In this document: piece after piece, positions 12,419 to 28,419 of the stretch | Position numbering within the stretch: position 1 is the first letter of the stretch | Layout of the letters: each line of letters starts with the position of its first letter | Source: an uncultured bacterium | GTDB taxonomy: Bacteria > Bacteroidota > Bacteroidia > Chitinophagales > Chitinophagaceae | Reading direction: 5' to 3' | Assembly: GCA_903920455.1 (NCBI GenBank) | Contig: CAIXLY010000026.1 | Span: forward strand, 1 to 44,530 | Length of the DNA stretch: 44,530 nt | Notes under the pieces: model-generated | What the model saw: only the letters and a program-made list of their open reading frames with translations | Told to the model about the DNA's origin: nothing | Database searches by the model: none | Program-made: the position numbers and the translations under genes

Positions 12419-12614
12419 ATTGATACAGAAACAATAGTCACTAATTGTTATAGCTGTAAAAAGGTGAAAACACAGAATAGAAAAGATATTTTCTCGTCTG
12501 ATAAAACGGTTTAATATGAGCACCAATAGCTGAAATATTACTATTTTACTGTTAAGAATTTAGATATTAATTAACCTACCTTGTAACATAACAAGTACAC
12601 CTCTAACGAACGCC
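12419..12614. other. Intergenic DNA upstream of the methyltransferase
   Basis: No gene seen. The left part resembles the DNA upstream of the other DUF1016 copy (around 17470-17540). The remainder is AT-rich and probably holds the promoter of the gene at 12615, though no clear box was found. Confidence 0.5.
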
Positions 12615-13328: not shown

Positions 13329-13570
13329 GATAATTGCAATGATGCAATTGGTGAACAAACTGTTGCAGATGCCATACACGACAGGCGAGTATATCAATCC
13401 GCTCGCATAGCACTGAAAAGCGAATCGTTGAAAAAAATAAAGAAAGAAATTAACACTTAAGAATCATAGCAAATTAATTAAACAAAATTTACAGAAAAGA
13501 CCTAGGTTTAAAAAAAAGAAAAGCACTTTAGGATTTTTAAGGGCATCAATGAATTTATAATAGAAAAAAC

Positions 13571-14080
13571 ATGAATATCAAAAACCGTATACTGTACTCT
13601 TTAGCCATCTTCATTGGCCTCGCTCTAACCCTTTCATCCTGTAAAAAGAATGATGCACCCCAGACAAAGACCTTGGAACAACAAGTAGAAGAGAACCTTG
13701 ATGCCTTCGTTGCGGATCTGGAATCGCAACCTCCAACAGCGGAGGATATCTCAACTAGGGTATATGCCTATATGCAGGGTAACCCGGAGGTCTTCTTCGG
13801 TTCAACAGTGGTGTTACTCGATGGTACACAAACCGCCGTTGTGGGCCCTTACTGGTACCGCAGTTCAGGAACATTGGTAGAGAGCGATCTCATGAACATA
13901 GGATATCAAATAAATGAACAACATTGGCTTCGAGAAGTAATTGATGGCGGTCAGGCCATTTGGACCGAGCCTTATTTTGATGATGGTGGAGGAAACATCT
14001 TGATGAAGACACGTTCGGTTCCTGTATTCGTAAATGGTCAGATGGTGGCAGTGGCCACTACCGATCTCTCATTGGAGTGA
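13571..14080 (+). CDS. Lipoprotein with a single Cache/PDC sensor domain
   Basis: 169 residues. The lipobox LALTLSSC places Cys at about residue 24, so the mature protein is anchored by lipid. The rest matches the PDC/Cache fold found in chemoreceptors and histidine kinases: GPYWYRSSGTLVESDLMN, EQHWLREVIDGGQAIWTEPY, FDDGGGNILMKTRSVPVF and the closing VAVATTDLSL. Those domains bind small extracellular ligands such as amino or organic acids. Here no signalling domain follows, so it may act as a ligand-binding lipoprotein or be what remains of a larger sensor. A propeller-sensor remnant follows 80 bp downstream. Confidence 0.7.
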   Translation: MNIKNRILYSLAIFIGLALTLSSCKKNDAPQTKTLEQQVEENLDAFVADLESQPPTAEDISTRVYAYMQGNPEVFFGSTVVLLDGTQTAVVGPYWYRSSGTLVESDLMNIGYQINEQHWLREVIDGGQAIWTEPYFDDGGGNILMKTRSVPVFVNGQMVAVATTDLSLE

Positions 14081-14161
14081 GTTTATGCCTGCGCCGACAA
14101 CAACTATCAATGAAACGCTGATTAGACAGATTACCTGCCTTCGGCAGGGGATCTGTCAACA

Positions 14162-14380
14162 GCAAGAGATAACAATAATAATTTGTGGTTTGTAACCTAT
14201 CGTAATGGCGTTTGGAAATAAGACGGAACAAAAGTCACTCATTACCCAGTTCAGAAAGATGCTAAAGACATTGCGATTTTTAGCATTTACAAAGACACCA
14301 ATGGCGGCCTTTGGCTTGGAACACACGAAAATGGAGCATTTAAATTCAATGGGGGAACTTTTGTAAAATTTACACCATGA
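14162..14380 (+). pseudogene. Remnant of a two-component-regulator beta-propeller protein
   Basis: One frame encodes RDNNNNLWFVTYRNGVWK, a TAA stop (14219-14221), then DGTKVTHYPVQKDAKDIAIF and DTNGGLWLGTHENGAFKFNG, ending FVKFTP and TGA. These are two to three blades of the Reg_prop type (DxxGxLWxGTxxxG), the sensor part of hybrid two-component systems. The TAA stands where the blades normally have Tyr before DG, so a TAT/TAC-to-TAA change is likely. The 5' side ends in a CCTGCCTTCGGCAGG hairpin unit (14136-14150). Start and signalling domains are missing. Confidence 0.7.
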
Positions 14381-14570
14381 TGAAATACAGAAGAGCTACC
14401 GGCAACAGCACATGTGCGATAGGCTGGGTGACGTTTTTCGCATCAATATCTGCCTGCCGGCGGGGAGGTGTGTGCTAAAAATCCCCCTCAACGCAAAGCC
14501 GCAAACCGTTAGGGTGCAATTTGAAAAACAAATAAATAATATACAGCGTCTGAAAACTACTAATGGATAT
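14381..14570. other. GC-richer leader of the fusion gene
   Basis: No gene seen. The stretch 14390-14520 is clearly GC-richer than the gene that follows and contains a CTGCCGGCGGGGAGG unit similar to the hairpin repeats at 14136 and 16340. An open frame through it joins the fusion gene, but its peptide resembles no protein domain and I treat it as leader. Confidence 0.4.
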
Positions 14571-16280
14571 ATGTTCAATAAACATCTAATTGAAATCTCA
14601 ATTGCAACACGTATTGATAGAAATAAAATTTATCAGCTTCGCCACGAAGTCTATGCATTAGAGTTAATGCAGCACCCACATAATGAGGCAATGAGGTTTG
14701 AAGACAAGTTAGATCAATTCAATGTATACATTGTTGCAAAAATAAATGCAGAAATCGCTGGTTTCATCAGTGTTACTCCACCTGATCAAAACGATTATTC
14801 AATCGATAAATATTTCACACGAAATGAAATTCCTTTCGCAGTAGATGCCGGCACATTCGAAATGCGAATATTAACAGTGATCAAAGAATATCGAGGTAGG
14901 CCTATTGCAGTGGCACTCATGTGGGCCGCTTTTCGATTGATTCAGTCGCTAGGTGGTTTGAATATCATGGCCATCGGCAGATCTGAAGTGCTTGACCTGT
15001 ATTTAAAGTTAGGATTTAAGGCAACTGACAAGGTAGTTAAAGCTGGTGAAGTCACGTTTACATTAATTCATGGACAAGTAGCAGACTTGCATGATTTCAT
15101 AGAGAGTAATTTAAAAAGTACTTTCAACAAGGTCAAACAGCAATGTGATTGGAAATTGTCGATTGACTTTTTTAAACCTGCTACATGTTATCATGGAGGT
15201 GCTTTTTTTGATGCCATCGGAAACGAATTCGATGACCTCAATAAAAGAAGAAATATCATTAATGCAGATGTGCTGGATGCTTGGTTTGATCCGGCTCCAA
15301 GGTTGATTAAAGAACTGGAAAATCATTTTTCATGGATTTGCAAAACTTCCCCTCCAACGGATTGTGCAGGTATGGCAAATGGCATAGCCAGAGCACGGGG
15401 CGTTCAACCGGACAACATTCTTCCTGGCGCGGGCTCATCGGATTTAATATTTCTTGCTTTTAGAGAATGGTTAACACCGGCATCACGTGTATTGATACTT
15501 GATCCAACCTATGGTGAATATGTGCATGTTCTTGAAAATATTATTGGATGTCAGGTTGATCGGATCAACTTACTCAAAGCCAATAATTATGCTTTGGACT
15601 TAGAACAACTTGTAAACCTAGCAATGAATAATTACGACTTAATTGTCATTGTCAATCCAAATAGTCCCACAGGTCAACATGTTCCGAAGACACAACTCGA
15701 GAATGCGTTAAGACAAATCAGCCCTACTACCCGTATTTGGATAGATGAAACCTATATCGAATACTGCGGGAGAGATCAGACGCTAGAGAAATTTGCCGTC
15801 CGTACAAGTAATGTTATTGTCTGTAAATCGATGTCTAAGGTGTATGCATTAAGCGGACTTCGCGCTGCGTATTTGTGTGCGTCAGCGCTTCAACTTGAAA
15901 AATTAAGATCTATTTCTCCCCCATGGGCAGTGAGTCTGCCAGCTCAAATTGCTGCATTAGTCGCTTTACAAGAGGATAGTTATTATGAAGAATGCTATGA
16001 GCAGACACACTCACTTAGGGAGGAATTCTCTAAAGAATTGTTGAAATTTAATTCATTAGCCGTTTTACAAAGTAAGGCCAATTTTGTGCTTTGTTATCTT
16101 GCTGAAAATGGGCCTAGTGCTGAAACAGTTGTTTCTAAATGCAAAGAAATGGGCCTATATCTAAGGGATGTTTCCAATATGGGAAATAATTTCAATAAAC
16201 ATACAATTAGAATTGCGATAAAAGATAAAGAAACAAATCAAAAGATGCTGGAAATTATTAAGCAAGTACTAGATGATTGA
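14571..16280 (+). CDS. GNAT acyltransferase-aminotransferase fusion protein
   Basis: 569 residues from ATG 14571 (MFNKHLIEIS). Residues ~1-170 resemble a GNAT or autoinducer-synthase-like acyltransferase: IYQLRHEVYALELMQHP, VDAGTFEMRILTVIKEYRGR and LYLKLGFKATDKV. Residues ~215-569 form a fold type I PLP aminotransferase close to histidinol-phosphate aminotransferase/CobD: DNILPGAGSSDLIFLAFREW, VNPNSPTGQHVP, WIDETYIEYCG and CKSMSKVYALSGLRAAYL, whose Lys binds PLP. The two domains in one chain suggest transamination (or decarboxylation) and N-acylation of the same small molecule, but no other biosynthetic genes are nearby. An in-frame upstream start at 14412 exists; the extra 53 residues look non-coding. 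Confidence 0.75.
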   Translation: MFNKHLIEISIATRIDRNKIYQLRHEVYALELMQHPHNEAMRFEDKLDQFNVYIVAKINAEIAGFISVTPPDQNDYSIDKYFTRNEIPFAVDAGTFEMRILTVIKEYRGRPIAVALMWAAFRLIQSLGGLNIMAIGRSEVLDLYLKLGFKATDKVVKAGEVTFTLIHGQVADLHDFIESNLKSTFNKVKQQCDWKLSIDFFKPATCYHGGAFFDAIGNEFDDLNKRRNIINADVLDAWFDPAPRLIKELENHFSWICKTSPPTDCAGMANGIARARGVQPDNILPGAGSSDLIFLAFREWLTPASRVLILDPTYGEYVHVLENIIGCQVDRINLLKANNYALDLEQLVNLAMNNYDLIVIVNPNSPTGQHVPKTQLENALRQISPTTRIWIDETYIEYCGRDQTLEKFAVRTSNVIVCKSMSKVYALSGLRAAYLCASALQLEKLRSISPPWAVSLPAQIAALVALQEDSYYEECYEQTHSLREEFSKELLKFNSLAVLQSKANFVLCYLAENGPSAETVVSKCKEMGLYLRDVSNMGNNFNKHTIRIAIKDKETNQKMLEIIKQVLDD

Positions 16281-16479
16281 AATATAAATTAACGCTAACC
16301 CAACTTATCAAAACAATTGCTGACATGGCAGCGCAGATTCCCAGCCTTCGGCAGGCAAGCTCGCTGCGCTCGGGCAGATACAGCCAGAGACAAGGGACGA
16401 GGGACAAGTGATACAGCCAACTCACACAACTTTCTTCAACTTCCCTCAACCTTGTATTTCCTCGTCCCCGGCAGCATAT
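16281..16479. repeat. Degenerate repeat cluster
   Basis: No gene. At 16331-16376 a GCGCAGATTC start and a CTCGCTGCGCTCGGGCAG end, the two halves of the extragenic repeat, are split by a CAGCCTTCGGCAGG unit. At 16386-16416 the text GACAAGGGACGAGGGACAAG resembles 9711-9730. So the same set of repeat modules occurs on both sides of the graveyard. Confidence 0.6.
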
Positions 16480-17469
16480 TCATTTCACCTTACGCAATTC
16501 CTTTAGTAACTGCTCCTCCGAAGGGAGATAGAGTTGATACTTGCTGGCAATGATGGTTTGGTTATCATCCGGTAAAGTGATTTTCACCACGGCATCATTT
16601 TTATCCGCACATAGCAGAATGCCGATTGTTGGATTTTCATGATCCTTCTTTTCAAAACGGTCATGGTAATTAACATACATCTGAAGTTGTCCGATATCCT
16701 GATGGGTGATTTTATCCGTTTTGATCTCAACAATCACAAAACATTGCAACAGCCTGTTATACAATACAAGGTCAATAAAGAAATCATCACCAGCCAAGTG
16801 AATCCTTTTTTGTCTAGCCATAAAAGCAAAACCATTTCCCAGTTCAAGCAAAAATTCCTGTAAGTGGGTGATGATCTTTGTTTCAAGGTCTTTTTCATAA
16901 TAATTGGACTCTTGCTTTAACCCGAGAAATTGCAAAACCATGGGGTCTTTAATGATATCTTGGGCATCAGCAGGTTCCTTTTCTGATCTGGCAATGGAGA
17001 GAACTGCTTCAGGATGATTGCTCATAAGCAGTCGCTCGTAGAGATGACTATTGATCTGTCTTTCTAATTGTCGGGAACTCCATGCATTTTTTACAGCTTC
17101 AGCTTCGTAGAATTCTCTTTTCATTTGATTTTCAGTACTTAATCGTAGTTTGTAGTGCGTCCAAGTGAATTGCGTCCGCAGTGCGGACGCAATTGGATAT
17201 AACTTATGAAACTGTCCATACCTTTCCAGTTGCCTTCTACTAAAAGACTCACCATATAACGCGGAAAGCTCTACTGATAAGTGTTTTAATAAATAGATTC
17301 CGTACTCCGCTCACTCACTCCCCATCTGCGCCTCCTCATAGATCTTTCGCCCCAACTCCCAATACATCCGAACCCGAATATGATCAACTGACCTTATTGC
17401 ACGTTCACGCGAGTTCTCTATAATTTCTTTTACTTCCTCTAAAAAACCATTTCTCAATTTCATATTCAT
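16480..17469 (-). pseudogene. DUF1016 (YhcG-type) PD-(D/E)XK nuclease, interrupted by one in-frame stop
   Basis: The reverse frame from ATG 17469 or 17463 (MKLRNGFLEEVKEIIENSRE) to TAA 16480 is a full-length DUF1016 protein of about 329 codons, broken only by TGA at 17313-17311. Around the stop the peptide reads KIYEEAQMGSE-stop-AEYGIYLLKHLS; family members have GxERAEYG there, so an Arg CGA-to-TGA transition explains it. After the stop the frame is intact: SFSRRQLERYGQFHKLYP, TQFTWTHYKLRLS, KREFYEAEAVKNAWSSRQLE and the nuclease core FFIDLVLYNRLLQCFVIVEI then KTDK (D...ExK). Family members are PD-(D/E)XK nucleases of uncertain role, often with mobile DNA. An internal ATG (17124) could give the C-terminal 214 residues alone. 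Confidence 0.85.
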
Positions 17470-17692
17470 ACAGCAATAAAAATCCACAAATGTTAGAGCT
17501 GTAAAAAGGTAAAAACACTTAATAAAAAAAGAGATTTTCTCTTCGCTGGAAGAGGCAATCTTCATGTCATTAAAGAATGTTTAGGTGTTTAGGACCCAAC
17601 AACTAAACAGTTATTCCTAGTCTCTTTAGTGTATGTCGTCCGTCTCTTTTTTCTGTGACCCCTCTTTTTTCTTTCATCCCTCCACCACTACC

Positions 17693-17720
17693 CTGTCATC
17701 CCGAGCGAAGCGAGGGATCT
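17693..17720 (+). repeat. Extragenic repeat copy 3
   Basis: CTGTCATCCCGAGCGAAGCG then AGGGATCT. It forms an inverted pair with copy 4, with 44 bases between. Confidence 0.85.
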
Positions 17721-17764
17721 ATGCTATCAAGAGTCTTACGTTAATTTATAATGAAACGATGAGT

Positions 17765-17796
17765 GCGCAGATTCCTCGCTGCGCTCGGAATGACAG
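17765..17796 (-). repeat. Extragenic repeat copy 4 (reverse orientation)
   Basis: GCGCAGATTCCTCGCTGCGC then TCGGAATGACAG, the reverse complement of the repeat, near-identical to copy 1. Confidence 0.85.
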
Positions 17797-17838
17797 TTTG
17801 GGTGAGGGACGGTGCGCTACGGCAATGCTAAAAATAAA

Positions 17839-17865
17839 AAATGCCCCTAATGGGGCATTTGATTT
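17839..17865. terminator. Terminator next to the tRNA-Ser 3'-end duplicate
   Basis: A 9-bp stem AAATGCCCC/GGGGCATTT with a TAAT loop and A/T runs on both sides. On the reverse strand it stands 10 bases after the CAGTCTCCGC sequence that matches the tRNA-Ser end, the spacing expected of a tRNA gene's own terminator. Confidence 0.8.
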
Positions 17866-17870
17866 TTAAT

Positions 17871-17887
17871 GCGGAGACTGAGGGATT
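17871..17887 (-). repeat. Left att-like site (tRNA-Ser 3'-end fragment)
   Basis: 17 bases identical to the end of the tRNA-Ser gene at 28332-28348, in the same orientation. The similarity stops sharply after 17887. Confidence 0.7.
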
Positions 17888-18013
17888 GTCCTCGCTTCGC
17901 TCGGACATCGGGTGGGAACCTGCAATCTTCAATTAAAACCAATGCGGCTTCGCCGCAGTATTTTTTGTTTTCCCCGACCTCCATAAAGCAAGCTTCAGTC
18001 GGCGGGAAAACAA

Positions 18014-18039
18014 AAAACCCACGAAAATTCGTGGGTTTT
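18014..18039. terminator. Terminator in the second att-like module
   Basis: A near-perfect stem AAAACCCACGAA/TTCGTGGGTTTT with T/A-rich sides. It stands 10 bases from the GCGGAGACTG copy at 18050, repeating the terminator-att spacing seen at 17839-17871. Confidence 0.75.
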
Positions 18040-18048
18040 AATTTCGAT

Positions 18049-18123
18049 TGCGGAGACTGTTTGGGAAGAAGCGGAATAGAAAAGTAACAATAAGGCAATA
18101 GCAAAAAACATTTTACTGTACAT
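18049..18123 (-). pseudogene. Orphan signal-peptide start joined to an att-like core
   Basis: ATG at 18123 (reverse) opens MYSKMFFAIALLLLFYSASS then QTVSA, a good secretion signal. The frame at once enters the CAGTCTCCGCA sequence (18059-18049) and the terminator, and closes soon after (about 17999). So a gene for a secreted protein has been cut right after its signal peptide at the same 11-base sequence found at the left att site. Confidence 0.55.
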
Positions 18124-18468
18124 GGGTGTAGGTTTTAGGTTAACAACGGAGGCCTAGCGAAAGTAATGGGATGAAATAAAAAGAATTGTTAAGTAGTCCT
18201 ACGCGAATGTTAAAGTGATGTTAGTTAGGATTTTGTTACCACAACCTATTTGAGGTTAAAATCAGTGAACAGAAAAAGGATAATTTGCGTGAATTTACTG
18301 AGACGACTTTGATAATGATATAGCTGGATTGAAAAAATTCAATACAGTACAAACTTAAAGTGGGGATAGTAGATAGTAACGCTCTTCCAGATTTAATTAA
18401 TGAACAAAGAACGTGCTGAGATAGCAAACGTTTTCCAATAACAAACAAAGGAATTACTATAAGCTCAA

Positions 18469-18490
18469 TGGAATATTCCGGAATATTCCA
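18469..18490. repeat. 22-bp perfect palindrome (left copy, P1)
   Basis: TGGAATATTCC followed by GGAATATTCCA: perfect dyad, no spacer. It is conserved at 26763-26786, where it extends to 24 bp. Confidence 0.9.
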
Positions 18491-18504
18491 GAATATAATG
18501 GGCG

Positions 18505-18542
18505 GTTTTTGCTGGATTATTCCGGAATAATCCAGCAAAAAC
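18505..18542. repeat. 38-bp perfect palindrome (left copy, P2)
   Basis: Arms GTTTTTGCTGGATTATTCC and GGAATAATCCAGCAAAAAC are exact reverse complements with no spacer. The counterpart at 26809-26828 keeps a 20-bp perfect core with one mismatch beyond it. P1 and P2 share the centre TATTCCGGAATA. Confidence 0.9.
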
Positions 18543-18801
18543 TAAAGGGCTTTTTATATCCCCTTAAGAGCGCCTATAGCAAATTCCTATAAAACCTTAT
18601 GAATACCCTAGGTCTACCCTTTTCATATCATTGGTCAACTTCAATGCAACCGACACACTTCCAGCGGATCTATGTGAACCTCTTATATTGCATTTAGCAA
18701 TTACTCTATATCAATTATTTTATTAAGAATAATACATTATTAAATTTCTATGAAAGACATACATTTGGTGCCATAATTGCTGAAGCTTAAATTCCTTTAG
18801 G

Positions 18802-19533
18802 ATGATAATCCGCATTCTTATTGTTCAACAAATAATTAATCTCTTGGAGAGATTCTTTTTTTACCCTAAGCTAAAAAACTATTATAAGTCGTTGAAGCTA
18901 ACTGACCCATTTACGATTATTGATGTAGGAGCAAACAAGGGTCAATCTATTGATTTCTTTCTAAACCTTTATCCATTAGCTATTATTTATGCATTTGAGC
19001 CAAATAGAAAACTGTTTTTGAAATTAGTTGAGAAATATAAACCTTATCAGCAAATAAAATTGTACAATTTGGGGATAAGCAATGTTAATGGAAGCTTAAG
19101 GTTTTATCAAAATATATTAGATGAGACTTCTTCATTTGAACTGCCAAGTAAAAATTCAACTTGCCTAAAAAAGAAAGCATCTATTCTTGGTGTTGGGCCT
19201 AATGAAATTATTGCTACTGAATACGATGTAGATGTGAGCACTTTATCCCATTTCTGTTCATCTCATGAAATTAGAGATGTCTCAATTTTAAAAATTGATG
19301 TCGAGGGACATGAATTCCAATGCCTTGAGGGGCTACTTCCCAGCTCTGATGTTAATATTGGCATAATTCAATTAGAGAAACACAATGACGATATGTATGA
19401 AAGCAATTCTTTGTCAAACGGCACCCCATCTATCATCTCTGTTTTAGATATGGAACTCGCTAAAACAATATCTCATCCGTTTGCCAACTTTGATGAGCTT
19501 ATTTATACAAAGAAAATTTCTACAACTAAATAG
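18802..19533 (+). CDS. FkbM family methyltransferase
   Basis: 243 residues. FkbM-type Rossmann motifs: FTIIDVGANKGQSIDFFL (about 37-54, SAM loop), IIYAFEPNRKLFLKL and the family hallmark ILKIDVEGHEFQCLEGL (about 168-184). These enzymes usually O-methylate sugars of glycans, O-antigens or natural products. No glycosyltransferases are nearby, so the substrate is open. It is the first cargo gene of the element; the following CotH gene starts 44 bp later in the same direction and may share its transcript. Strongly AT-rich. Confidence 0.85.
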   Translation: MIIRILIVQQIINLLERFFFYPKLKNYYKSLKLTDPFTIIDVGANKGQSIDFFLNLYPLAIIYAFEPNRKLFLKLVEKYKPYQQIKLYNLGISNVNGSLRFYQNILDETSSFELPSKNSTCLKKKASILGVGPNEIIATEYDVDVSTLSHFCSSHEIRDVSILKIDVEGHEFQCLEGLLPSSDVNIGIIQLEKHNDDMYESNSLSNGTPSIISVLDMELAKTISHPFANFDELIYTKKISTTK

Positions 19534-19577
19534 TCCACTTTCTTTGACGACATGAATTGGTATACGACATGGCACAT

Positions 19578-21269
19578 ATGGAAAATATAATTTTCAAAAG
19601 GTGGTTTCTGTTAATCTCATTTTTTCTGATTACTATTTCCATTAGCGCAACAATCATATCTCCTCTTTCGAAATCAGATAATATTAGTGGTAGTGACTAC
19701 TTCATGTTCAGTGAGGATAGTTCATTCTTGCCGATAATAATGATTAATACCTTTAATCAAGAGATTATTCAGGATAGTAAGATTCATGCAGTCATGTCTA
19801 TTAAATATCAAGGTGATGGTAAGTTCACTCACTTAACGGATAGTTCCAATATTTATTATGGCGATATTGGTATTGATGTCAGAGGAGCTAGTTCAGCCTG
19901 GTATCCACAAACACCATTTAATATTGAAACGAGAACTTCATCCGGACTGAGCAATAATGTTTCATTATTTGGGATGCCTGCTGAAAATGATTGGGTGCTT
20001 ATCTCGAATTATAATGATCGGTCTTTACTCCGAAACACACTTGCTGGGAGATTATTCTCTAGTATGGGAAACTATGCATCACGCTCGAAGCTATGTGTTG
20101 TATACCTTGATAGTGTTTACCAAGGCATCTATGTATTTTGCGAAAAATTAAAACGAGATAAAGATCGAATTGATATTGCGCATCTCTACACGTTTGAAAA
20201 TACTGGAGATGACTTAACCGGTGGATATATTTTACAGCAAAATCTTTGGTACGGTAAAGATGGATTTGTGTCCAATTATTCTCCAATCGATCATCCTGGA
20301 TACGAAGTACATTATTTGTACGAATATCCAAAAACAGATTCTATAACACTTGCTCAGAAGAGATATATAGCTCAATATGTTGACACCTTAGAGAAAGTTT
20401 TATATAGTCCAACGTTTAAAAATTCTCAGAGTGGGTATCGAAAATACCTCGATACAAAATCGTTTATTGATTATTTTATTGTCAATGAAGTGGCAAGAAA
20501 TATTGATGGCTTTAAGAAAAGTATTTTTTTTAGTAAAGACAAAAATTCTAATGGCGGGAAATTGAAAGCAGGTCCTGTTTGGGATTTTGATTGGGCTTGG
20601 AAAAATATTGATGATTGTTTTTTATTAGCCAATACCAGTGGTAGCGGTTGGGCCCATCATATTAATGATTGCCAACCTGATAATAATTCCAATGGGTATT
20701 ATATACGATTATTGCAAGACACATCTTTTGCAAATGAATTGAGGTGTACTTACGAGGCATATCGTAAAACAGTATTAGATACGGCTTTTATTTTTCAGTA
20801 TATTGATAGTGTAGAACAGCAAGTACGATTCGATCAGGAATCTCATTTTCAAAAATGGCAAACTCTTGGAGTTTCAGGGCCTGCGCCAGAGATTAATACC
20901 ATACCTGGAACATACGGCGGAGAACTGGATTATTTGAAAGATTGGATTACTAAACGGTTGGCTTGGCTCGATAAGAATATCCCAGGGAAGTGCAATGGCG
21001 GTGGTAGTAGTGGGGGCTCAGGAACAAAATATTTCAGTTTTTATCCCAATCCATCCCATAGCGGTATTATTCATTTTGATGGGAGCTTAAATGGCATGGG
21101 GCCCTTCCAATTAAGCATCTTTGATGTTTCGGGCAGGGTAGTTAAAAAAATGGCACTCGCAACCGGGCGTTCAACATTTGACATAACCCTTACTTCTCGT
21201 GGGGTATATTATTTCACAGTTGTTGATTCTGGAGAAGTAGTTCAATACGGAAGGATATTAGTCCTGTAA
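19578..21269 (+). CDS. CotH-family secreted kinase with T9SS sorting domain (CotH-1)
   Basis: 563 residues from ATG 19578 (MENIIFKRWFLLISFF), the start that gives the best signal peptide; ATG 19569 is also possible. CotH domain (about 45-440): GDIGIDVRGASSAWYPQTPF, FGMPAENDWVLISNYNDRSL, YQGIYVFCEKLKRDKDRI and the conserved acidic motif LKAGPVWDFDWAW. Bacillus CotH is an atypical protein kinase for spore-coat proteins (established). After a glycine-serine linker, FSFYPNPSHSGIIHFDG ... LSIFDVSGRVVKKM ... RGVYYFTV is a T9SS type A sorting domain, so the protein should be secreted and PorU-processed. A paralogue follows 361 bp downstream. Confidence 0.85.
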   Translation: MENIIFKRWFLLISFFLITISISATIISPLSKSDNISGSDYFMFSEDSSFLPIIMINTFNQEIIQDSKIHAVMSIKYQGDGKFTHLTDSSNIYYGDIGIDVRGASSAWYPQTPFNIETRTSSGLSNNVSLFGMPAENDWVLISNYNDRSLLRNTLAGRLFSSMGNYASRSKLCVVYLDSVYQGIYVFCEKLKRDKDRIDIAHLYTFENTGDDLTGGYILQQNLWYGKDGFVSNYSPIDHPGYEVHYLYEYPKTDSITLAQKRYIAQYVDTLEKVLYSPTFKNSQSGYRKYLDTKSFIDYFIVNEVARNIDGFKKSIFFSKDKNSNGGKLKAGPVWDFDWAWKNIDDCFLLANTSGSGWAHHINDCQPDNNSNGYYIRLLQDTSFANELRCTYEAYRKTVLDTAFIFQYIDSVEQQVRFDQESHFQKWQTLGVSGPAPEINTIPGTYGGELDYLKDWITKRLAWLDKNIPGKCNGGGSSGGSGTKYFSFYPNPSHSGIIHFDGSLNGMGPFQLSIFDVSGRVVKKMALATGRSTFDITLTSRGVYYFTVVDSGEVVQYGRILVL

Positions 21270-21630
21270 TGGCTTTTTCATTTTGACTAAATGCATTAGA
21301 ATATCTACCATTTTTTATGTGTTGCTAATTGATGAGCGTTGATTGTTAGTTATAAGTAACTGTTAATTAATGATGTATAAGTGAAAGTCAGGCTTCAAAC
21401 AGGTCAACTTGGCTGCTAAACATAAAACTAGCTTCAATTGCTGATTTCCTAAAAATAATAGGGATTTTATTATATAAATTGATTGTATAATTTTTATTTC
21501 AGGCCAAAATCTGTAATTTTTCAAAACGCGTTGGACGCCAATTATGCTAAAACTCAAAACAAAAAAGACTTTCAAAAAACTTATTTTTATAACATCATAA
21601 CGCTAGTGAAACTCATTATGAAATAAACTT
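21270..21630. other. Gap between the two CotH genes
   Basis: No gene seen on either strand; very AT-rich. No convincing terminator or promoter box was found, so I cannot say whether the two CotH genes are co-transcribed. Confidence 0.5.
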
Positions 21631-23670
21631 ATGTCTTTAAAAATATTATTAAATTTTGTTTTTATTATCTGCACTGTAACAGCTAAAGCGCAGGTATTTA
21701 CGGATAGTAACCTCCCCATTGTTATTATTACTACAGACAAAGATCCAAATACAGGACTACCGAGTATAATACCTGATGAATCCAAAGTGCTGGGGTCAAT
21801 GAAAATCATATACAGGCCCGATGGTTCACGCAACTATATTTCAGATCAAAATAATCCAACTTATCTAAATTATAATGGAAAAATAGAGATAGAAGTAAGA
21901 GGTTCAACTTCTCAATTTTTAGAAAAGAAACCTTATGGATTAACAACACTTACTGAAGATAATAGAACCAACAACAATGTCAGTATTTTAGGAATGCCAG
22001 AGGAAAATGATTGGATATTAAATTCACTAGCCTTTGATCCATCCTTATTAAGAGATTACCTCTCTTATTATCTTTCAAGAAGTATTGGCAATTATGCATC
22101 CCGAGGGAAATATTGTGAAGTAATAGTAAATGGAGATTATAGAGGTCTGTATATTTTCATAGAAAAAATAAAAATTGACAAGGAACGTGTCAATATAGAA
22201 AAAATGGATCAAGCTGATAATAGTGGATTAAAGGTTACTGGAGGATATATTGTTAAAGCAGATAAAACAAATGGAGATCCAGTAGCATGGGAAATGGAAA
22301 ATAACAATGGAGGATACGTACAATACATTCATGATAATCCAAAATCAGAATTAATCAATTCTATACAAAGCACTTACATCCAATCAATATTTAATCGACT
22401 CAAAGATGATATGATAAATCGAAATGAATCCATAAAAGATGGCTACCCATCTGAAATAGATATACCAAGTTTTATCGACTACATGATAATTAATGAATTA
22501 TCATCTAATGTTGATGCATATCAATTCAGTACGTATTTCCATAAAGATAGAGGGGGGAAATTAAAAGCAGGGCCAATATGGGATTGCAATTTGACATATG
22601 GCAATGACTTATACTTTTGGGGATATGATAGAAGCTTCGTTGATGTATGGCAATTTGACAATGGAGATAATACAGGATCGCGATTTTGGAATGACCTCTA
22701 TAAAAATCAAACTTATAAATGCCATCTTGCAAAACGATGGAAACAAGTAAGCCAATTCAATAATCCATTGAATTATAACTCAATATCTAAAAAAATCGAC
22801 TCCATTTTTTTAGATATTAATGAAGCGGCAATAAGAGAACAAAATAAGTGGTATTCAGTTGGCAATCTTCAATCAAACGTAAATGATATAAAAATATGGC
22901 TTCAAAAAAGAATTGAATGGATGAACGCGACAATAGGAAACGATGATGGCTGTCCAACACCTATAGCCCCACCTCTAGTTATTTCCAAAATCCATTATAA
23001 CCCTTTAGAAAACAATGGGTACACCAGTAATAATCTTGAATTCACTGAAATCACTAACAATAGTAATCTAAAAGTAGATATGTCAGGGCTCTATTTCAGT
23101 GAACCAGGCTTCACCTTTCAATTTCCGATTAATTCTACAATAGACCCACTTCAAAAAATATATTTATGTAGCGATAGTATAGCGTTTAAAAATATTTACG
23201 GTATTGCTCCTTTGGGGCAATTTGGAAGAAATTTGTCAAATAAATCTCAGAAATTAGTCCTTTCAGACGCATGGGGGAATACCATAGATGAGGTAGAATA
23301 TAAAGATGAAACTCCTTGGCCTGTTGAAGCAGATGGCAAAGGGTTTTTCCTAGAATTAATCAATCTCTCCTTTGACAATAGTCTGGCCTCAAGCTGGATT
23401 GCAAAAGACTCTGCCTTTCAACAAAATAAAATTGAAACAACCATTTCAATATTTCCAAATCCATTTATACATCAGATAATTATAAAAAACGGAAATGATT
23501 ACCCACTACATCTTCGCATATTTAATGCAACAGGGCAACTAATCGAAATAATAAACAATTTATCACAAGGGCAAGAAATTCAAATTGGCAGTAGGTATAG
23601 ATCAGGAATCTACTTTATAGAGGCTACAGGAAATGGAGAAAAGGTAATTAGAAAAATCATCAAATCATAA
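21631..23670 (+). CDS. CotH-family kinase with lamin-tail domain and T9SS sorting domain (CotH-2)
   Basis: 679 residues. Signal peptide LLNFVFIICTVTAKAQ. CotH domain (about 20-445): GKIEIEVRGSTSQFLEKKPY, GMPEENDWILNSLAFDPSLL, YRGLYIFIEKIKIDKERV and LKAGPIWDCNLTYG. In CotH-1 the last motif reads WDFDWAW; here the second acidic residue of WDxD is replaced (WDCN), so activity may differ. Residues ~448-595 form a lamin-tail domain (VISKIHYNPLENNG, LEFTEITNNS, GFFLELIN), common in Bacteroidota surface proteins. The end ISIFPNPFIHQIII ... LRIFNATGQLIEI ... SGIYFIEA is a T9SS type A sorting domain. Strongly AT-rich. Confidence 0.85.
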   Translation: MSLKILLNFVFIICTVTAKAQVFTDSNLPIVIITTDKDPNTGLPSIIPDESKVLGSMKIIYRPDGSRNYISDQNNPTYLNYNGKIEIEVRGSTSQFLEKKPYGLTTLTEDNRTNNNVSILGMPEENDWILNSLAFDPSLLRDYLSYYLSRSIGNYASRGKYCEVIVNGDYRGLYIFIEKIKIDKERVNIEKMDQADNSGLKVTGGYIVKADKTNGDPVAWEMENNNGGYVQYIHDNPKSELINSIQSTYIQSIFNRLKDDMINRNESIKDGYPSEIDIPSFIDYMIINELSSNVDAYQFSTYFHKDRGGKLKAGPIWDCNLTYGNDLYFWGYDRSFVDVWQFDNGDNTGSRFWNDLYKNQTYKCHLAKRWKQVSQFNNPLNYNSISKKIDSIFLDINEAAIREQNKWYSVGNLQSNVNDIKIWLQKRIEWMNATIGNDDGCPTPIAPPLVISKIHYNPLENNGYTSNNLEFTEITNNSNLKVDMSGLYFSEPGFTFQFPINSTIDPLQKIYLCSDSIAFKNIYGIAPLGQFGRNLSNKSQKLVLSDAWGNTIDEVEYKDETPWPVEADGKGFFLELINLSFDNSLASSWIAKDSAFQQNKIETTISIFPNPFIHQIIIKNGNDYPLHLRIFNATGQLIEIINNLSQGQEIQIGSRYRSGIYFIEATGNGEKVIRKIIKS

Positions 23671-24013
23671 GCATTCAGGTGCGCTCAGCCTATATAGTGA
23701 AAAAATAAATTACTATTATATAAATCGATATTCTCCCAAACGATAGATAAACTATCTACTTACTTTTGTTCTGAGGAAAAAAGACGCCTTATTTTGCAGC
23801 GAACTTCTTTAATAAAGTTCTCTGTAGATAGATTTGAGTAGTGTTTCATGTCATTATTGAGTTAATTATTAATGATAATGCTCTCTACGATTTTAGTATA
23901 GATTTTATCCACTGTATGCTGACGATTTACAGATGGCCTTGCTGATTTAATATCATTCGCGGTTTATTGATTTTGAGAATGATAAGCTTAAGCATTATTT
24001 ATATATTTGCTAT
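23671..24013. other. Gap between CotH-2 and the VTC operon
   Basis: No gene seen. It holds weak hairpins (GATAG/CTATC near 23745; GAACTT/AAGTTC near 23800-23820). TATATTTG at 24002-24009 matches TAnnTTTG but is only 4 bases before the ATG at 24014, so either the transcript is nearly leaderless or the box is fortuitous. Confidence 0.4.
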
Positions 24014-24772
24014 ATGACATTAAGTGTGCCATTAACTTCTGATTACATCTGTGAGGGATTTTCTCGTGTGCTTTTTTCTGAGCTGCCTAGTGAATTATTG
24101 CTGTCTAACCGCAAAGATCTGAAGTATATAATTGATAACGATTCATTTTTACTGATATTTGAAAAGTTAAAGAGCGAGTATGATATACTTGTTAACGACG
24201 GAAATAGTCTGTTTGAATATAAGACCCAATATTACGATACAGCTGATTTCCGGTTTTATGCCGATCACCAAAGGGGTAAACTACCCAGGCAAAAAATCAG
24301 AACAAGAACCTATCAGGATGGCAAAAGTTTTCTGGAGATAAAGAGTAAAGATAACAAGGGCTTTACGCGCAAGATCAGAAATGAAATTGATATTTCAACT
24401 TTTGTAATTGATGACTATGATACCTTCATTTATAATTCAATCGGATTTAAAGTTTTGCCACTATTAAAAACATTAACAGTCAACTATAAACGAGTTAGTC
24501 TCTATGATAAAGACAGGACAGAAAAAATAACCTTTGATTTTTTTTATAATGCTGATCATCATGGACGGACTTATGAGAGAACTCAGATGGTTTTGGTAGA
24601 AAGTAAGGGACTAAACCATAAGCATTCTTTATTTAATTTACTCATGCATGATATGCGCATTGGTCCTGTTTCATTTAGCAAATATTGCTTCGGACTTAGC
24701 AATCTTGAATCTTGCTTAAAAATCAATAATTTTATGCCATTGCTTAAGACAGTTAAAAAAATATTTAATTAA
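24014..24772 (+). CDS. VTC-domain polyphosphate polymerase-like protein
   Basis: 252 residues, a cytoplasmic CYTH-like VTC domain as in yeast Vtc4, which builds polyphosphate from ATP. Tunnel-fold motifs: NRKDLKYIIDND (about 32-43), YKTQYYDTADFRFYADHQ, LPRQKIRTRTYQDGKSFLEI, KSKDNKGFTRKIRNEID, VLVESKG and SFSKYCFGLS. The basic RxKxRxR and KxR clusters that bind phosphate chains are kept. It is shorter than fungal Vtc4 because it lacks the SPX domain. DUF4956 follows after one base, and CotH genes lie upstream; this trio is a neighbourhood I recall from other bacteria. Substrate and product are not proven here. Confidence 0.8.
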   Translation: MTLSVPLTSDYICEGFSRVLFSELPSELLLSNRKDLKYIIDNDSFLLIFEKLKSEYDILVNDGNSLFEYKTQYYDTADFRFYADHQRGKLPRQKIRTRTYQDGKSFLEIKSKDNKGFTRKIRNEIDISTFVIDDYDTFIYNSIGFKVLPLLKTLTVNYKRVSLYDKDRTEKITFDFFYNADHHGRTYERTQMVLVESKGLNHKHSLFNLLMHDMRIGPVSFSKYCFGLSNLESCLKINNFMPLLKTVKKIFN

Positions 24773-24773
24773 T

Positions 24774-25376
24774 ATGAAAATACTTCAAGTTGTATTTGAT
24801 GGGATGGGTGATGATGTAGTTGCACTATTGGCAACTAAGTTAATCATCGATCTTTTAGCCATTCTCGTGCTCGTTCGATTTATCTATTTGAAAAACTATC
24901 GACGCACTGATCTTTTTTTGACATTTTTTTCTTTTAATATCATCGTTTTTTTTATCAGCTATTTGCTTAATAGGGTTGAGATGAGCACTGGTGCTGCCTT
25001 TGGTTTGTTTGCCATATTTTCAATGTTACGTTATCGTACTGAAGGGATTTCAGCAAAGGATATGACATATCTTTTTTTGTGTATTGCCATTGGCTTAATT
25101 ACTGCTGTTAGCAATGGATCCATACTTGAATTATTTCTTATTATAGTCTTTATTGTAGCTGTGATATTTTTGTTGGAGTCCGGACATATTCTAAGGAATA
25201 GGCCTTCTATACAAATTGACTTTGACCGCACTGACTTGATTCATCCAGACAAAAGGCAAGAATTAAAATCTGAACTGGAAAAAAGAACAGGCTTATCGAT
25301 TAGCCATATAGAAATTAGTACGATTGATTATTTAAAAGACAGTGCCATTGTACACATTTACTATGATCAAAAATAA
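24774..25376 (+). CDS. DUF4956 membrane protein
   Basis: 200 residues with four hydrophobic spans (about 18-38, 45-66, 85-105 and 110-128) and a soluble C-terminal tail with SELEKRTGLSISHIEISTID. The motif GAAFGLFAIFSMLRYRTEGI (about 64-83), followed by KDMTYLFLCIAIGLI, is typical of DUF4956, a family that often neighbours VTC polymerases. It starts one base after the VTC stop and overlaps the next gene by 14 bases, so the three are almost surely translated from one mRNA. It may channel or sense the VTC product at the inner membrane; this is inference. Confidence 0.85.
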   Translation: MKILQVVFDGMGDDVVALLATKLIIDLLAILVLVRFIYLKNYRRTDLFLTFFSFNIIVFFISYLLNRVEMSTGAAFGLFAIFSMLRYRTEGISAKDMTYLFLCIAIGLITAVSNGSILELFLIIVFIVAVIFLLESGHILRNRPSIQIDFDRTDLIHPDKRQELKSELEKRTGLSISHIEISTIDYLKDSAIVHIYYDQK

Positions 25377-26043
25377 GTTCTATTTATTTGCTTTGCTTTT
25401 CTTTTCGGCTCAGTCTATATTTGGTCAAGCAACCAAAGCAGATCCAATTGATATTCAAGGATGGTTTGGGGCTAATGTTGAGGCTGATTTGCCCCAAAAA
25501 TGGAGCTTCGATTTTTCATATCAAACACGACTTAATAACAACCTGACGAAGAATAATGGGTCTTATTATTCATTCGGCACTAAGAAGCGTTTGTTTAAAC
25601 CTTTGTCATTACTGGGCGAGTATCGCTTGTCAAAAGTTCTTAATGGCACATATAATCGTTTTACTGCAGGGGTTGATATAGATTATAATATAAATAAAAT
25701 TAAAACTGATTTTAGATTGCTCTATCAAAATCAGATACAAGATTTTGATGATTTAAGGAAAGAGAATGACGATGATCATTTTTTGCGTGCGCGAATAAGA
25801 GGTCGTTTCCCTTTGGTTAAAAACACATCAATAGTATTATCTACGGAGCCAATTTATAAGATAGCGTCAGGGATTACAATAGATAATTACAGGCATCAAG
25901 TTGGCTTGCGTTATAATTTTAAAAATTACCTACGAGCGGAGGTTTTTTATATTAATCGCTCGGATTATGCAAAGAAGTATAGGCGCCAATACCATATTTT
26001 CGGCACTACAATCACTTACTCATTTAAGATCAAATCAAAGTAA
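25363..26043 (+). CDS. DUF2490 outer-membrane beta-barrel protein
   Basis: 226 residues from ATG 25363 (MIKNKFYLFALLFFSAQSIF, signal peptide ending at GQA). An upstream GTG at 25342 is not needed. The mature part is a chain of amphipathic beta strands: QGWFGANVEADLPQKWSFDF, SYYSFGTKKRLFKPLSLLGE, FLRARIRGRFPL and a closing strand HIFGTTITYSFKI, typical of DUF2490, a predicted outer-membrane barrel of unknown function. It overlaps DUF4956 by 14 bases (translational coupling). It would place the outer-membrane end of a pathway whose other parts sit in the cytoplasm (VTC) and inner membrane (DUF4956). Confidence 0.8.
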   Translation: MIKNKFYLFALLFFSAQSIFGQATKADPIDIQGWFGANVEADLPQKWSFDFSYQTRLNNNLTKNNGSYYSFGTKKRLFKPLSLLGEYRLSKVLNGTYNRFTAGVDIDYNINKIKTDFRLLYQNQIQDFDDLRKENDDDHFLRARIRGRFPLVKNTSIVLSTEPIYKIASGITIDNYRHQVGLRYNFKNYLRAEVFYINRSDYAKKYRRQYHIFGTTITYSFKIKSK

Positions 26044-26061
26044 GCTACTCCACATCTATTA

Positions 26062-26277
26062 TTGTTGCTTAAAAAAGTTGATAATCAAAGTGGGAAAGAT
26101 GGAATTAAACCTGCTTTTTATTTCGATGGAGTTAAGATTACAGAAAAGGAAATGAAAGCTATTTCTTCAAATGATATAGAATTAATTAATATATTGAAAG
26201 GAGAAAATGCAATAAAAAAATATCATGAGAATGGTAAAAGTGGGGTAGTGGAAATTAAATTAAAGCATAAGAATTAA
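26062..26277 (+). pseudogene. TonB-plug-like C-terminal fragment
   Basis: The frame continues in phase after the DUF2490 stop and encodes KPAFYFDGVKITEKEMKAIS, NDIELINILKGENAIKKYHE and KSGVVEIKLKHKN. This is the segment shared by TonB-dependent receptor plugs and the tails of some BlaR/M56 proteins (xxDGxxI...I..IxVLKG..A...YG..G.xGVV.I). There is no ATG before it, only TTG codons, so I read it as a remnant. Confidence 0.55.
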
Positions 26278-26390
26278 TTTTAACCACTGCGTGAGGAAAA
26301 CACCCCCTGCATTCGGTTAAAATCGGTTGATTTCGGTTTTGTGAAAACATAACCCCTTACAAATCGATGCTTTTATTTTCTCAAAAAATC

Positions 26391-26420
26391 TTTATAACCC
26401 TGAGGTCCCGGGTTCAAATC
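26391..26420 (+). other. tRNA-derived remnant (3' half)
   Basis: TTTATAACCCTGAGGTCCCG followed by GGTTCAAATC reads as the 3' side of an anticodon arm, a variable loop (GAGGTC) and the 5' strand and loop of a T arm (CCGGG-TTCAAAT). The 3' T-stem strand and acceptor stem are missing. T loops are common crossover sites for tyrosine recombinases, so this may be an old att scar. Confidence 0.5.
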
Positions 26421-26462
26421 TTGTTATTGTACAGTGTTATTGTTGAGAATAATATAGGAGCT

Positions 26463-26492
26463 AAAAAGCAGGCATTAAAGGCCTGCTTTTTT
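26463..26492 (+). terminator. Terminator after the tRNA-like remnant
   Basis: An 11-bp stem AAAAAGCAGGC/GCCTGCTTTTT with a 7-base loop and T-run. Confidence 0.85.
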
Positions 26493-26653
26493 GATATTAA
26501 GTAATTTCTCAAAGACACCTATCAGACTGTAGAACTCCCTCAAATCTATCCACATTTGGTTAGATTGTAGTAAAATATTGGCTAGTAAGTTAGTCAAAAA
26601 AGTAATGTATTTTTTGAGGTGGAAATCCTCCATCTATCGGAGGTGTAGGAATT

Positions 26654-26947
26654 AGTGGGGAAAGAGACACTAATACTCTTGTAGATTTATTTGATGAACA
26701 AAATAACGCGCAAATAGAACAAACGTTTTCCAATGACAAACAAAGGAATTACTATAAGCTCACTGGAATATTCCGGAATATTCCAGAATATAATGCGCGG
26801 TTTTTGCTGGATTATTCCGGAATAATCCGGCAAATAGTAAGGGGCTTTTTTATATCCCCTTAAGAGCGCCTATGCCAAATTCCTATAAAACCTTATGAAT
26901 ACACCAGGTCAACCCTTTTCATATCATTGGTCAACTTCAAGGCAACC
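26654..26947. repeat. Direct repeat, right copy
   Basis: Counterpart of 18359-18651. It overlaps the last ~55 bases of the intact integrase gene. It contains the palindromes at 26763-26786 (24 bp, perfect) and 26809-26828 (20-bp core). Confidence 0.85.
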
Positions 26948-28104
26948 ACTTTGGCATAATCCTGTGTTTGACGAATCGTTGCATGCCCAAGCATGGAACT
27001 CACCGATTCTATAGGAACCCCATTTGAAAGAGTTATGGTAGTTGCAAAGGTGTGTCGGGCCAAATGAAAATGAAGGAGCTTCTCCACTGTAGACAGCCTT
27101 CCAATGGTTTTAAGCTGTTCGTTAATTTTCTGGTTGGTTGATACATACCAACTGAAATCCCTAAAATCACTTGAATTGCTATACTTTTTCAAAATCTCAA
27201 TGGCAGGAATGATTAGAGGAACTATGCTGAGCTGACCAGTCTTTTGCCTGGGCTTTTCAATGAAATAAGTTCCTCCATTATCTTTTCTGATGTTGGCCTT
27301 TCCAAGTTGGCCCAAGTCTACATAGGCCAAGCCTGTGTAACAACAGAATAAAAATTGATCCCTTACCCGCTCAAGGCTGACGCTCTTTAAATCAGCATTG
27401 ATTATGCAAGTCAACTCCTCATTGGTCAGATATCCCTTATATACTTTTTTGGATTTGAATTTTAATTCAAGAAATGGATTTTTCCGGATTATTCCTTCAT
27501 GCATTGCTGGCATCAATAAGGTTCTGAATGCTCCCAGATATTTTACGCTGGTGTTGTTGCCAATTTTTCGGACTGACCTTAAATACAAAAAAAACTTTTC
27601 TAGAAACCGGACATCAATCTGGACTAAGGGATAACTTTTCAACTTATACTCGAACTGCACAAAGTCTAAAGCAAACCTCATTACCCTTTCATACTTTTCA
27701 TACGTAGTAGGCGTGATGTCAATCAACACCCGCTGTTGCAGCTCCTCCTTCCTAGACTCTAGAAATACTGCGAGCAGGATAGGTTTTTCTTCATTGCCCT
27801 TGATTTTCTGCACTAGGTCTTCCATCGTAAATGGAATACCGCTAAATTTCAACTCATCAAATAGCTGAATGGTTTTGTACCGAATCAAATCAAGGTTTTG
27901 GTTAAATAGTATACACTTCTTGGATTTGGCATACATCATTCCCTGGTCTGCATCCCACTCCAGAGGTGAGCAGTACAACCCGGTATAGATGTCGCGGCGT
28001 TCACGACGAAAGATGATTCTCAGAACCACGGGCGATTCTCCCTTTTTGTTCGCTCTGTCTTGCCTACAAAGGAAATTGAAATGAACTTGCATGATTTTTT
28101 GCAT
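26893..28104 (-). CDS. Tyrosine recombinase (site-specific integrase, Bacteroidota type)
   Basis: 403 residues from ATG 28104 (MQKIMQVHFNFLCRQD); a longer frame to 28182 adds 26 residues that do not look coding. The N-terminal arm-binding region (VVLRIIFRRERRDIYTGLYC) and SAM-like core-binding domain precede the catalytic domain. Catalytic residues seen: HLARHTFATTI (HxxR), MLGHATIRQTQDYAKV (GH and the nucleophilic Tyr). In the first Arg motif it reads CCYTGLAYVDL, with Ala where most have Arg, as is common in Bacteroidota integrases of this group. It lies beside tRNA-Ser with its 5' end toward the tRNA, as expected for an integrase that uses the tRNA as attachment site. Confidence 0.9.
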   Translation of the reverse strand: MQKIMQVHFNFLCRQDRANKKGESPVVLRIIFRRERRDIYTGLYCSPLEWDADQGMMYAKSKKCILFNQNLDLIRYKTIQLFDELKFSGIPFTMEDLVQKIKGNEEKPILLAVFLESRKEELQQRVLIDITPTTYEKYERVMRFALDFVQFEYKLKSYPLVQIDVRFLEKFFLYLRSVRKIGNNTSVKYLGAFRTLLMPAMHEGIIRKNPFLELKFKSKKVYKGYLTNEELTCIINADLKSVSLERVRDQFLFCCYTGLAYVDLGQLGKANIRKDNGGTYFIEKPRQKTGQLSIVPLIIPAIEILKKYSNSSDFRDFSWYVSTNQKINEQLKTIGRLSTVEKLLHFHLARHTFATTITLSNGVPIESVSSMLGHATIRQTQDYAKVVALKLTNDMKRVDLVYS

Positions 28105-28332
28105 AACCTTCTTTTTTAATGTGGTGTAAATTGAGAAGAATGCAGTAATCCAGATTATGCAAAATGGGGCAGAGGGGCGCAAAAGAAGTTGCCGCAGAAA
28201 TTAGCCTGTTTCTGGTGTCTGATTTTACCAAAAAACCCTGCTTTTGTCTGCTTCGCCTTGCATCAATAAAAAATGCAAAGCATTGACAATGTTGAAGTTG
28301 CAATGTTTTGCATTTGTTTGCAAGATATTCAG

Positions 28333-28419
28333 CGGAGACTGAGGGATTCGAACCCTCGAAACAGTTTCCCGTTTACACGCTTTCCAAGCGTGCTCCTTCA
28401 GCCACTCGGACAAGTCTCC
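28333..28419 (-). tRNA. tRNA-Ser(GGA)
   Basis: The reverse strand reads GGAGACT ... AGTCTCC as a 7-bp acceptor stem, a D arm (CCGAGTGGCTGAAGG), an anticodon arm ACGC-TTGGAAA-GCGT with anticodon GGA, a long variable arm (AACGGGAAACTGTT) and a T arm GAGGG-TTCGAAT-CCCTC. The discriminator is G; CCA is not encoded. Its 3' end is duplicated at 17871-17887. Confidence 0.95.

Follow-up and report, generated by a model that had tools for sequence, protein, structure and literature searches.

In the genome of an uncultured member of the Chitinophagaceae (Bacteroidota; assembly GCA_903920455.1), an intact tRNA-Ser(GGA) gene is followed by about 10 kb of DNA that carries a tyrosine integrase gene and is bounded by copies of the tRNA 3' end. 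This DNA lies in contig CAIXLY010000026.1, whose positions 1 to 44,530 are referred to here as the window, and it is likely to have a layered origin, in which the tRNA gene was used repeatedly, first by a small non-coding unit, termed here the mini-element, and then by stacked islands that were fused around the present cargo. The island proper most likely comprises positions 18060-28331 and is composite, and the 17-bp repeat at its far side probably belongs to the separate mini-element rather than marking the edge of the island. As relatives of the mini-element are found behind tRNA genes of other genomes, we somewhat favor the view that they represent a protein-free class of mobile DNA of ~160-200 bp, with a four-stem cloverleaf and an own terminator as the only conserved content. 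Such elements would insert site-specifically at an exact T-loop base of several tRNA isotypes across a bacterial family, give the tRNA a new 3' end and a new terminator, and leave landing sites where larger islands accumulate.

The target gene and right end of the locus, tRNA-Ser(GGA), lies at 28332-28419 on the minus strand (ARAGORN; Rfam tRNA). The 17 bp at its 3' end (GCGGAGACTGAGGGATT, 28332-28348) have one further exact copy in the window, at 17871-17887 (minus strand), which reaches from the T-loop base at AATCC to the last tRNA base and would form the outer boundary of the mini-element insertion. Only 0.01 matches to this 17-mer at up to two mismatches are expected by chance in the window, and no third exact copy was found in the 2.3-Mb genome (106 contigs). 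On the minus strand, a terminator-like hairpin (17839-17860), probably the native terminator of the tRNA gene, comes after the left copy, and a third, partial copy of the tRNA-Ser 3' end, 10 bp in length, is present at 18050-18059 (minus strand), where it most likely marks the left edge of the island proper. The G+C content is 0.38-0.45 outside the repeats and 0.31-0.36 in most segments inside them, with ~0.40 over the integrase gene. An earlier note on this DNA, made from the sequence alone, had already pointed to the exact terminal repeat, the intact tRNA gene on the right, the 3' fragment and terminator on the left, the AT-rich cargo and the recombinase beside the tRNA gene, and all of these observations were confirmed, the last by Pfam matches.

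For comparison of the locus, a query spanning the tRNA gene and the adjoining TatD gene was matched in 34 of 41 genomes of the genus, from which 20 stretches were fetched (G numbers denote genomes). A GCCCC hairpin like that at 17839-17860 stands directly 3' of the tRNA gene in four of the 20 (G004, G063, G035, and G036), and this is the empty site that the earlier note had predicted. In G063, G035, and G036 the symporter gene follows immediately, and then the altronate dehydratase and aldolase genes, in the old gene order; G004 is a weaker case, as a contig end truncates its tRNA gene, and the 16.8 kb beyond gave no match to the window genes that were tested. In five further relatives (G024, G015, G025, G021, and G012) the altronate dehydratase gene lies within ~130 bp of the tRNA gene, which therefore is free of an island there. 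The mini-element directly follows the tRNA gene in three relatives (G013, G006, and G002), an island arm does so in two (G008 and G016), and other sequence in six; in two of these, G010 and G030, the likeness to the mini-element is confined to its first hairpin. An uninterrupted tRNA gene with different following sequence, a case named by the earlier note as contrary to its proposal, occurs in 14 of the 20 relatives, so that not all members of the genus have the GCCCC terminator. On the far side of the native terminator, G063, G035, and G036 lack at this position the 8.1 kb that separate it from the symporter gene in the window (9699-17836); this segment carries a YhcG-like nuclease gene split into two open reading frames (ORFs). 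A palindromic interspersed repeat of the CATCCCGAGCGAAGCGAGGGATC type, which is common in such genomes, is found at 17697-17797.

The integrase gene (26893-28104, minus strand; 403 amino acids from an ATG) is oriented away from the tRNA gene, and its product matches the Pfam families Arm-DNA-bind_5, Phage_int_SAM_5, and Phage_integrase. Inspection of conserved columns showed that R259, K299, H358, R361, H385, and Y394 (414-amino-acid numbering), which we take to be the catalytic residues, are all present. The integrase is a member of a group that lives at tRNA-like genes: among the 23 other best matches with a locus, 21 are located at the 3' ends of tRNA-Ser (12), tRNA-Phe (5), or transfer-messenger RNA (tmRNA; 4) genes, in the same orientation as that gene and immediately 3' of it. 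Of five less closely related integrases in the genus, one adjoins a tRNA or tmRNA gene. All matches of the integrase in phage records (93) and plasmid records (100) are below 60% identity, and peptide scans of genome-contig and viral-contig collections with the window integrase gave no match; a scan with the integrase of G184 returned a single contig, which is 100% identical and evidently the contig of the query itself.

Between the integrase gene and the tRNA gene lies the right-end arm of the island (28255-28331, minus strand), a hairpin with a T-run that is probably a replacement terminator for the tRNA and that was delimited by comparison with G008 and G016. In G008, the 134 nt adjoining the same tRNA gene are 96% identical to this end of the island, and in G016 the identity is 77% over 231 nt, followed by an integrase with 74% identity over 251 amino acids, up to the contig end that falls inside the integrase gene. 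The G008 element is 5.27 kb long, with 25 bp of the tRNA end repeated at its distal side next to a similar terminator; it has no mini-element at its left end and holds an IS66-like insertion, the transposase being named from ORF reading; no integrase match was found in it. As a separate observation, a 68-nt piece of the right arm (85% identity) is present at 1501-1568 of contig 229 in G006 (L131), ~250 bp behind a tRNA-Leu(CAG) gene that also carries a mini-element. Integration at the 3' end of tRNA-Ser, as proposed in the earlier note, is supported by the empty sites, by the homologous ends in G008 and G016, and by 21 of the 23 integrase relatives. It is extremely improbable that the cargo is an old chromosomal segment whose scars are unrelated coincidences, a view in line with the lack of transfer or replication genes among the eight ORFs scanned and contradicted by the empty sites in relatives; the low chance expectation of the 17-bp repeat (0.01), the low G+C content, and a tRNA-Met boundary inside the cargo (see below) likewise speak against it.

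The 162 bp between the left 17-bp repeat and the 10-bp scar (17888-18049, minus strand) fold as a cloverleaf, with a z-score of -4.2 for the stretch, and contain an own terminator-like hairpin at 18014-18039. Similar sequences occur behind tRNA-Ser genes in relatives, and a covariance model built from seven copies was used to search 41 genomes of the genus (E ≤0.001) and 195 genomes of the family (E ≤0.0001). Matches were obtained in 15 and 11 genomes, respectively, numbers that are lower bounds, as stricter filters apply in large searches. Of the held-out matches, 23 of 26 start at the 3' end of a tRNA gene (Ser, Leu, Pro, or Lys). Within the genus, the match at 11 of 13 held-out places begins inside a tRNA-Ser (5) or tRNA-Leu (6) gene, 2-5 nt ahead of its end, and in the rest of the family 12 of 13 adjoin a tRNA gene (5 Ser, 3 Pro, 3 Leu, and 1 Lys), the thirteenth starting in a 3' fragment of tRNA-Ser. 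A second mini-element of the host genome itself (G000 contig 51, 20096-20221; L159) is located behind tRNA-Leu(CAG) and is 87-90% identical to the tRNA-Leu copies of G013, G006, and G008.

Conservation of the fold was assessed by a pair test on the seven copies, in which 94.9% of the cells are paired and 17 cells are double-changed, and neither value was reached in any of 500 shuffles. Six further copies that were folded singly have z-scores of -4.4 to -13.5, with the closed cloverleaf as the best fold in four of them. Several points weigh against this picture, as the structure used in the pair test was derived from the same seven sequences and, among the five measures of the test, the number of pairs changed on both sides (8) was reached by 8 of 500 shuffles, and the number of further pair types (18) was reached by 159 of 500 shuffles and hence does not stand out. 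Moreover, a MAFFT alignment of 20 sequences predicts only 16 pairs, the best fold of two copies (L152 and L165) is not a closed cloverleaf, and three of the 26 held-out matches have no called tRNA gene beside them. The model-fitted alignment of all matches mixed sense and antisense sequences and was excluded from the covariation analysis. No Rfam family was assigned to the cloverleaf at the curated threshold in the window, and otherwise only sub-threshold matches were seen besides tRNA; the rtT family in particular is absent among matches at E ≤1 in 17600-18800 and at E ≤0.01 in 10 other loci. No match to the mini-element was found in phage records (searched with the window copy and the Leu copies of G008) or in plasmid records (searched with the window copy), and no published account of cloverleaf mini-elements was found among the papers listed from the open-licence literature, which is a weak form of absence.

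A displaced 3' end of the tRNA was looked for behind 28 mini-element copies with an adjoining tRNA gene, five of which are training copies; the copies of the window and of G062 and the three matches lacking a called tRNA gene were omitted. Tails of mismatched isotypes compared with the same downstream DNA served as controls. A displaced end of the own tRNA of at least 12 nt is present behind 10 of the 28 copies, at 146-288 nt from the tRNA gene, and in none of 468 controls, and with a limit of at least 9 nt the numbers are 14 of 28 and 1 of 468. The T-loop base at which they begin, AATCC, is the same for all ten long displaced ends and for the 17-bp repeat of the window, so that this repeat matches a mini-element boundary exactly in its form. 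On the other side, 18 of the 28 mini-elements have no displaced end of at least 12 nt and 14 have none of at least 9 nt, hence decay must be assumed.

The degrees of similarity among mini-elements are most simply explained by their transfer from one tRNA gene and host to another. The mini-elements of G013 at tRNA-Leu(CAG) and of G008 at tRNA-Leu(GAG) are 98.7% identical, while the TatD genes of these hosts are 74.4% identical, and the copies at Ser(TGA) in G026 and Ser(GGA) in G013 share 89.3%, compared with about 71.5% for TatD. The Ser(TGA) units of G026 and G030 are 86.5-89.3% identical to the Ser(GGA) units of G013, G006, and G002, and 76.5-79.7% identical to the Ser(TGA) units of G002, G017, and G009. 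The mini-elements of the window and G062 are 93.1% identical, with 74.8% for the neighboring symporter gene and 74.5% for the altronate dehydratase gene. Presence and absence at one site, a displaced copy of the target, and near-identical copies at different sites, as expected of a mobile element, are hence all found in this family. The cloverleaf fold itself may be the recombination substrate, by analogy with the folded single-stranded sites of integrons.

The units could instead be non-mobile, i.e., long-standing trailer or terminator structures of tRNA genes, with the repeated tRNA ends arising from local tandem duplication. A precedent would be the tyrT gene of Escherichia coli, behind which a repeat of ~180 bp (178 bp) is found, each with a tRNA 3' end, a layout that we take to be similar to that of the cloverleaf units. 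This reading agrees with the partial second copy seen, by sequence reading, behind the first at several loci (G026, G006, and G013) and with the fact that tRNA-Leu copies are mostly similar to one another, and inheritance could account for the Ser(GGA) copies of G013, G006, and G002 (92.6-96.0% identity, with 80-90% for TatD). However, several relatives have the same tRNA gene without a unit, near-identical units reside in different isoacceptor genes of hosts that are ~74% identical in TatD DNA, and Ser(GGA) units rather than other Ser(TGA) units are the nearer relatives of the Ser(TGA) units of G026 and G030, so that non-mobile units are considered quite improbable.

The mini-element also bears on the extent of the island. 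The earlier note had proposed a single 10.5-kb element bounded by the 17-bp repeat, a proposal that was set aside, as the segment between the repeats includes both a third tRNA copy and a unit that also occurs at other tRNA genes, and the repeat has the form of a boundary of a separate 179-bp unit (17871-18049). A related possibility is a single element at 17888-28331, with the cloverleaf as the left end or attachment arm of the island itself and the 17-bp repeat as the true attL. The 17-bp repeat is the longer match, and the same mini-element (93%) borders two islands of different cargo at the same native flank, as in G062 (contig 5, L134) formate dehydrogenase and molybdopterin synthesis genes (named from ORF reading) take the place of the CotH cargo next to the same flank and mini-element. 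In other genomes, however, a mini-element is all that separates a tRNA gene from its displaced 3' end (e.g., G014, G008 contig 14, G485, and G470), and the related G008 island has no mini-element at its left end, which makes a single element unlikely.

That the island itself is composite is indicated by a direct repeat of ~290 bp that flanks the cargo, with a left copy at 18371-18665 and a right copy at 26665-26961 (89.6% identity over 289 aligned bases). The integrase gene ends within the right copy, which also holds two palindromes, and the left copy, with the last ~60 bp of an integrase gene (~18597-18660), therefore represents the remains of a second, diverged integrase end. The two palindromes (22 and 38 nt), which lie behind each integrase 3' end (18469-18542 and 26764-26834), are perfect in the left copy and near-perfect in the right copy, and are possible protein-binding or recombination sites.

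Part of the cargo appears to derive from a different kind of cassette, bounded by tRNA-Met. A partly degenerate 3' fragment of tRNA-Met(CAT), from the anticodon onward, is located at 26394-26433 (plus strand), within and behind a 131-bp arm (26282-26412, plus strand) that is common to tRNA-Met cassette boundaries elsewhere and occurs also on contig 98 of the same genome (83%). A terminator-like hairpin follows at 26463-26491 (plus strand), with a similar one behind the tRNA-Met fragment in G467, and the arm is preceded by a 71-amino-acid ORF (26062-26277, plus strand), which has homologs (70 and 65% over 63 amino acids) beside tRNA-Met cassette boundaries of two genomes, G467 and G225 (contig 13). 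In G225, an intact tRNA-Met gene is followed by six tRNA-Met fragments within 28 kb, one of them with a different arm, forming a tandem array with varied genes, and the boundary pattern (up to three mismatches) is found in 6 of 394 genomes, compared with 1 of 394 for a reversed control pattern. The G225 array (contig 7, ~70-98 kb; L204, L220, and L221) has an integron-like layout, in which cassettes bounded by ~42 nt of the tRNA-Met 3' half carry an AcrB-type efflux set, MgtC, and a glycosyltransferase, as well as TonB receptors (ORF reading); in the subset of array ORFs scanned, a weak integrase match of 160 amino acids, below the cut-off, was seen in one cassette. A further boundary in the host genome (G000 contig 98, 16698-16827; L167) has a small palindrome inserted in the tRNA fragment.

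The remaining cargo genes, all on the plus strand and assigned by Pfam, encode an FkbM-family methyltransferase (18802-19533), a CotH-domain protein with a type 9 secretion tail (19557-21269), a second CotH-domain protein with a lamin-tail domain and a type 9 secretion tail (21631-23670), a VTC-domain protein (24014-24772), a DUF4956 protein (24774-25376), and a DUF2490 protein (25363-26043). Neither transfer genes (relaxase and others) nor replication genes nor phage structural genes were detected by Pfam among the eight ORFs of 18802-28182, and five of the eight were compared with PHROGs, with matches for the integrase and methyltransferase only. An identity as integrative mobilizable element (IME), integrative conjugative element, or prophage was rejected on the lack of transfer and structural genes in the scanned ORFs. 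A similar set of CotH, VTC, and DUF4956 genes adjoins pel exopolysaccharide genes in streptococci and clostridia, according to the accessible part of one report (PMC7112168), and our guess would be a role of the cargo in modification of the surface or matrix.

From the tRNA gene outward, the layers are thus the integrase gene with the new terminator, the cargo ending in the tRNA-Met fragment, the second integrase end, the 10-bp scar, and the cloverleaf with the 17-bp repeat, and this arrangement suggests the following order of events. First, the 179-bp non-coding unit, i.e., the 162-bp cloverleaf and what is now the 17-nt displaced end, would have recombined into the T-loop of the tRNA gene, restoring the tRNA by means of the 3' end carried on the unit, with the unit's terminator behind it. 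Integrase-encoding islands would then have entered the tRNA 3' end, between the tRNA gene and the mini-element, bringing the terminator arm at 28255-28331, and at least two related islands may have stacked there. Finally, a deletion would have fused the stacked islands around the CotH/VTC/DUF4956 cargo, which was presumably part of a tRNA-Met-bounded cassette earlier. The tyrosine integrase is predicted to act at the tRNA 3' end and could still excise and reinsert the island. Some observations weigh against this history: the left core of the island itself would be just 10 bp, compared with 17 and 25 bp elsewhere, the GCCCC terminator is right behind the tRNA gene in only four of the 20 fetched relatives, no distal tRNA-end copy of at least 12 nt was found in 13 stretches around integrase relatives (five of them shorter than 8 kb), and the window is one contig of 106.

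As a stack of events, the island is legible, and the empty sites allow it to be read. The mini-elements call for caution, as an island may be flanked by a tRNA-end repeat that is not its edge. Should they prove mobile in the way proposed, they would represent site-specific mobile elements of very small size, every insertion of which would change the 3' processing and termination context of an essential tRNA gene, and they would offer a test of the folded cloverleaf as a recombination substrate.

An integrase gene beside an intact tRNA 3' end, displaced copies of that end (17 bp and the inner 10 bp), and an empty site in four of 20 relatives are the hallmarks of tRNA islands found here. Riemerella anatipestifer, like the present host, belongs to the Bacteroidota. 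Its 10K genomic island, in the available part of the report, is ~10 kb in size, lies beside a tRNA gene with direct repeats and a tyrosine integrase, and is reported to integrate and excise (PMC6764341). It resembles the island of the window in size, position, repeats, and integrase type, and differs in its target (tRNA-Arg) and 53-bp repeat, with neither nested scars nor a mini-element described in that part (PMC6764341). Stacking by tandem accretion of IMEs and cis-mobilizable elements has been described (PMC5704250, as far as available), and the three tRNA-Ser copies and the second integrase end conform to such accretion; in contrast to the systems presented there, no mobilization gene was found among the scanned ORFs here, a 162-bp non-coding element forms one of the layers, and a cassette boundary of another tRNA lies in the cargo. 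The ssrA islands of Dehalococcoides, judging from the accessible portion of the report, have many tRNA-like 3' direct repeats, T-loop insertion, and tandem islands, some without an integration module (PMC3146451). Repeated tRNA-like 3' ends, T-loop insertion, and tandem layout are hence shared with the present locus, whereas the target there is tmRNA, the integrase is CcrB-related, and no small structured element is described in that portion. CcrB is a serine recombinase, and tycheposons, a further group to be considered, occur in a phylum different from that of the present host. Tycheposons are islands with cargo and a tyrosine recombinase, and their start lies at a tRNA gene (PMC10872708, in the part available), a likeness to the present island that is one of description only. 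The mini-elements differ from the E. coli tyrT repeats and rtT, the latter being mentioned in the accessible parts of two reports (PMC2965389; PMC4986893), in that they give no Rfam rtT match, fold as a cloverleaf, and are located 3' of tRNA genes for Ser, Leu, Pro, and Lys in different species. The island is a further member of the known tRNA-island type, and the mini-elements are the new part.

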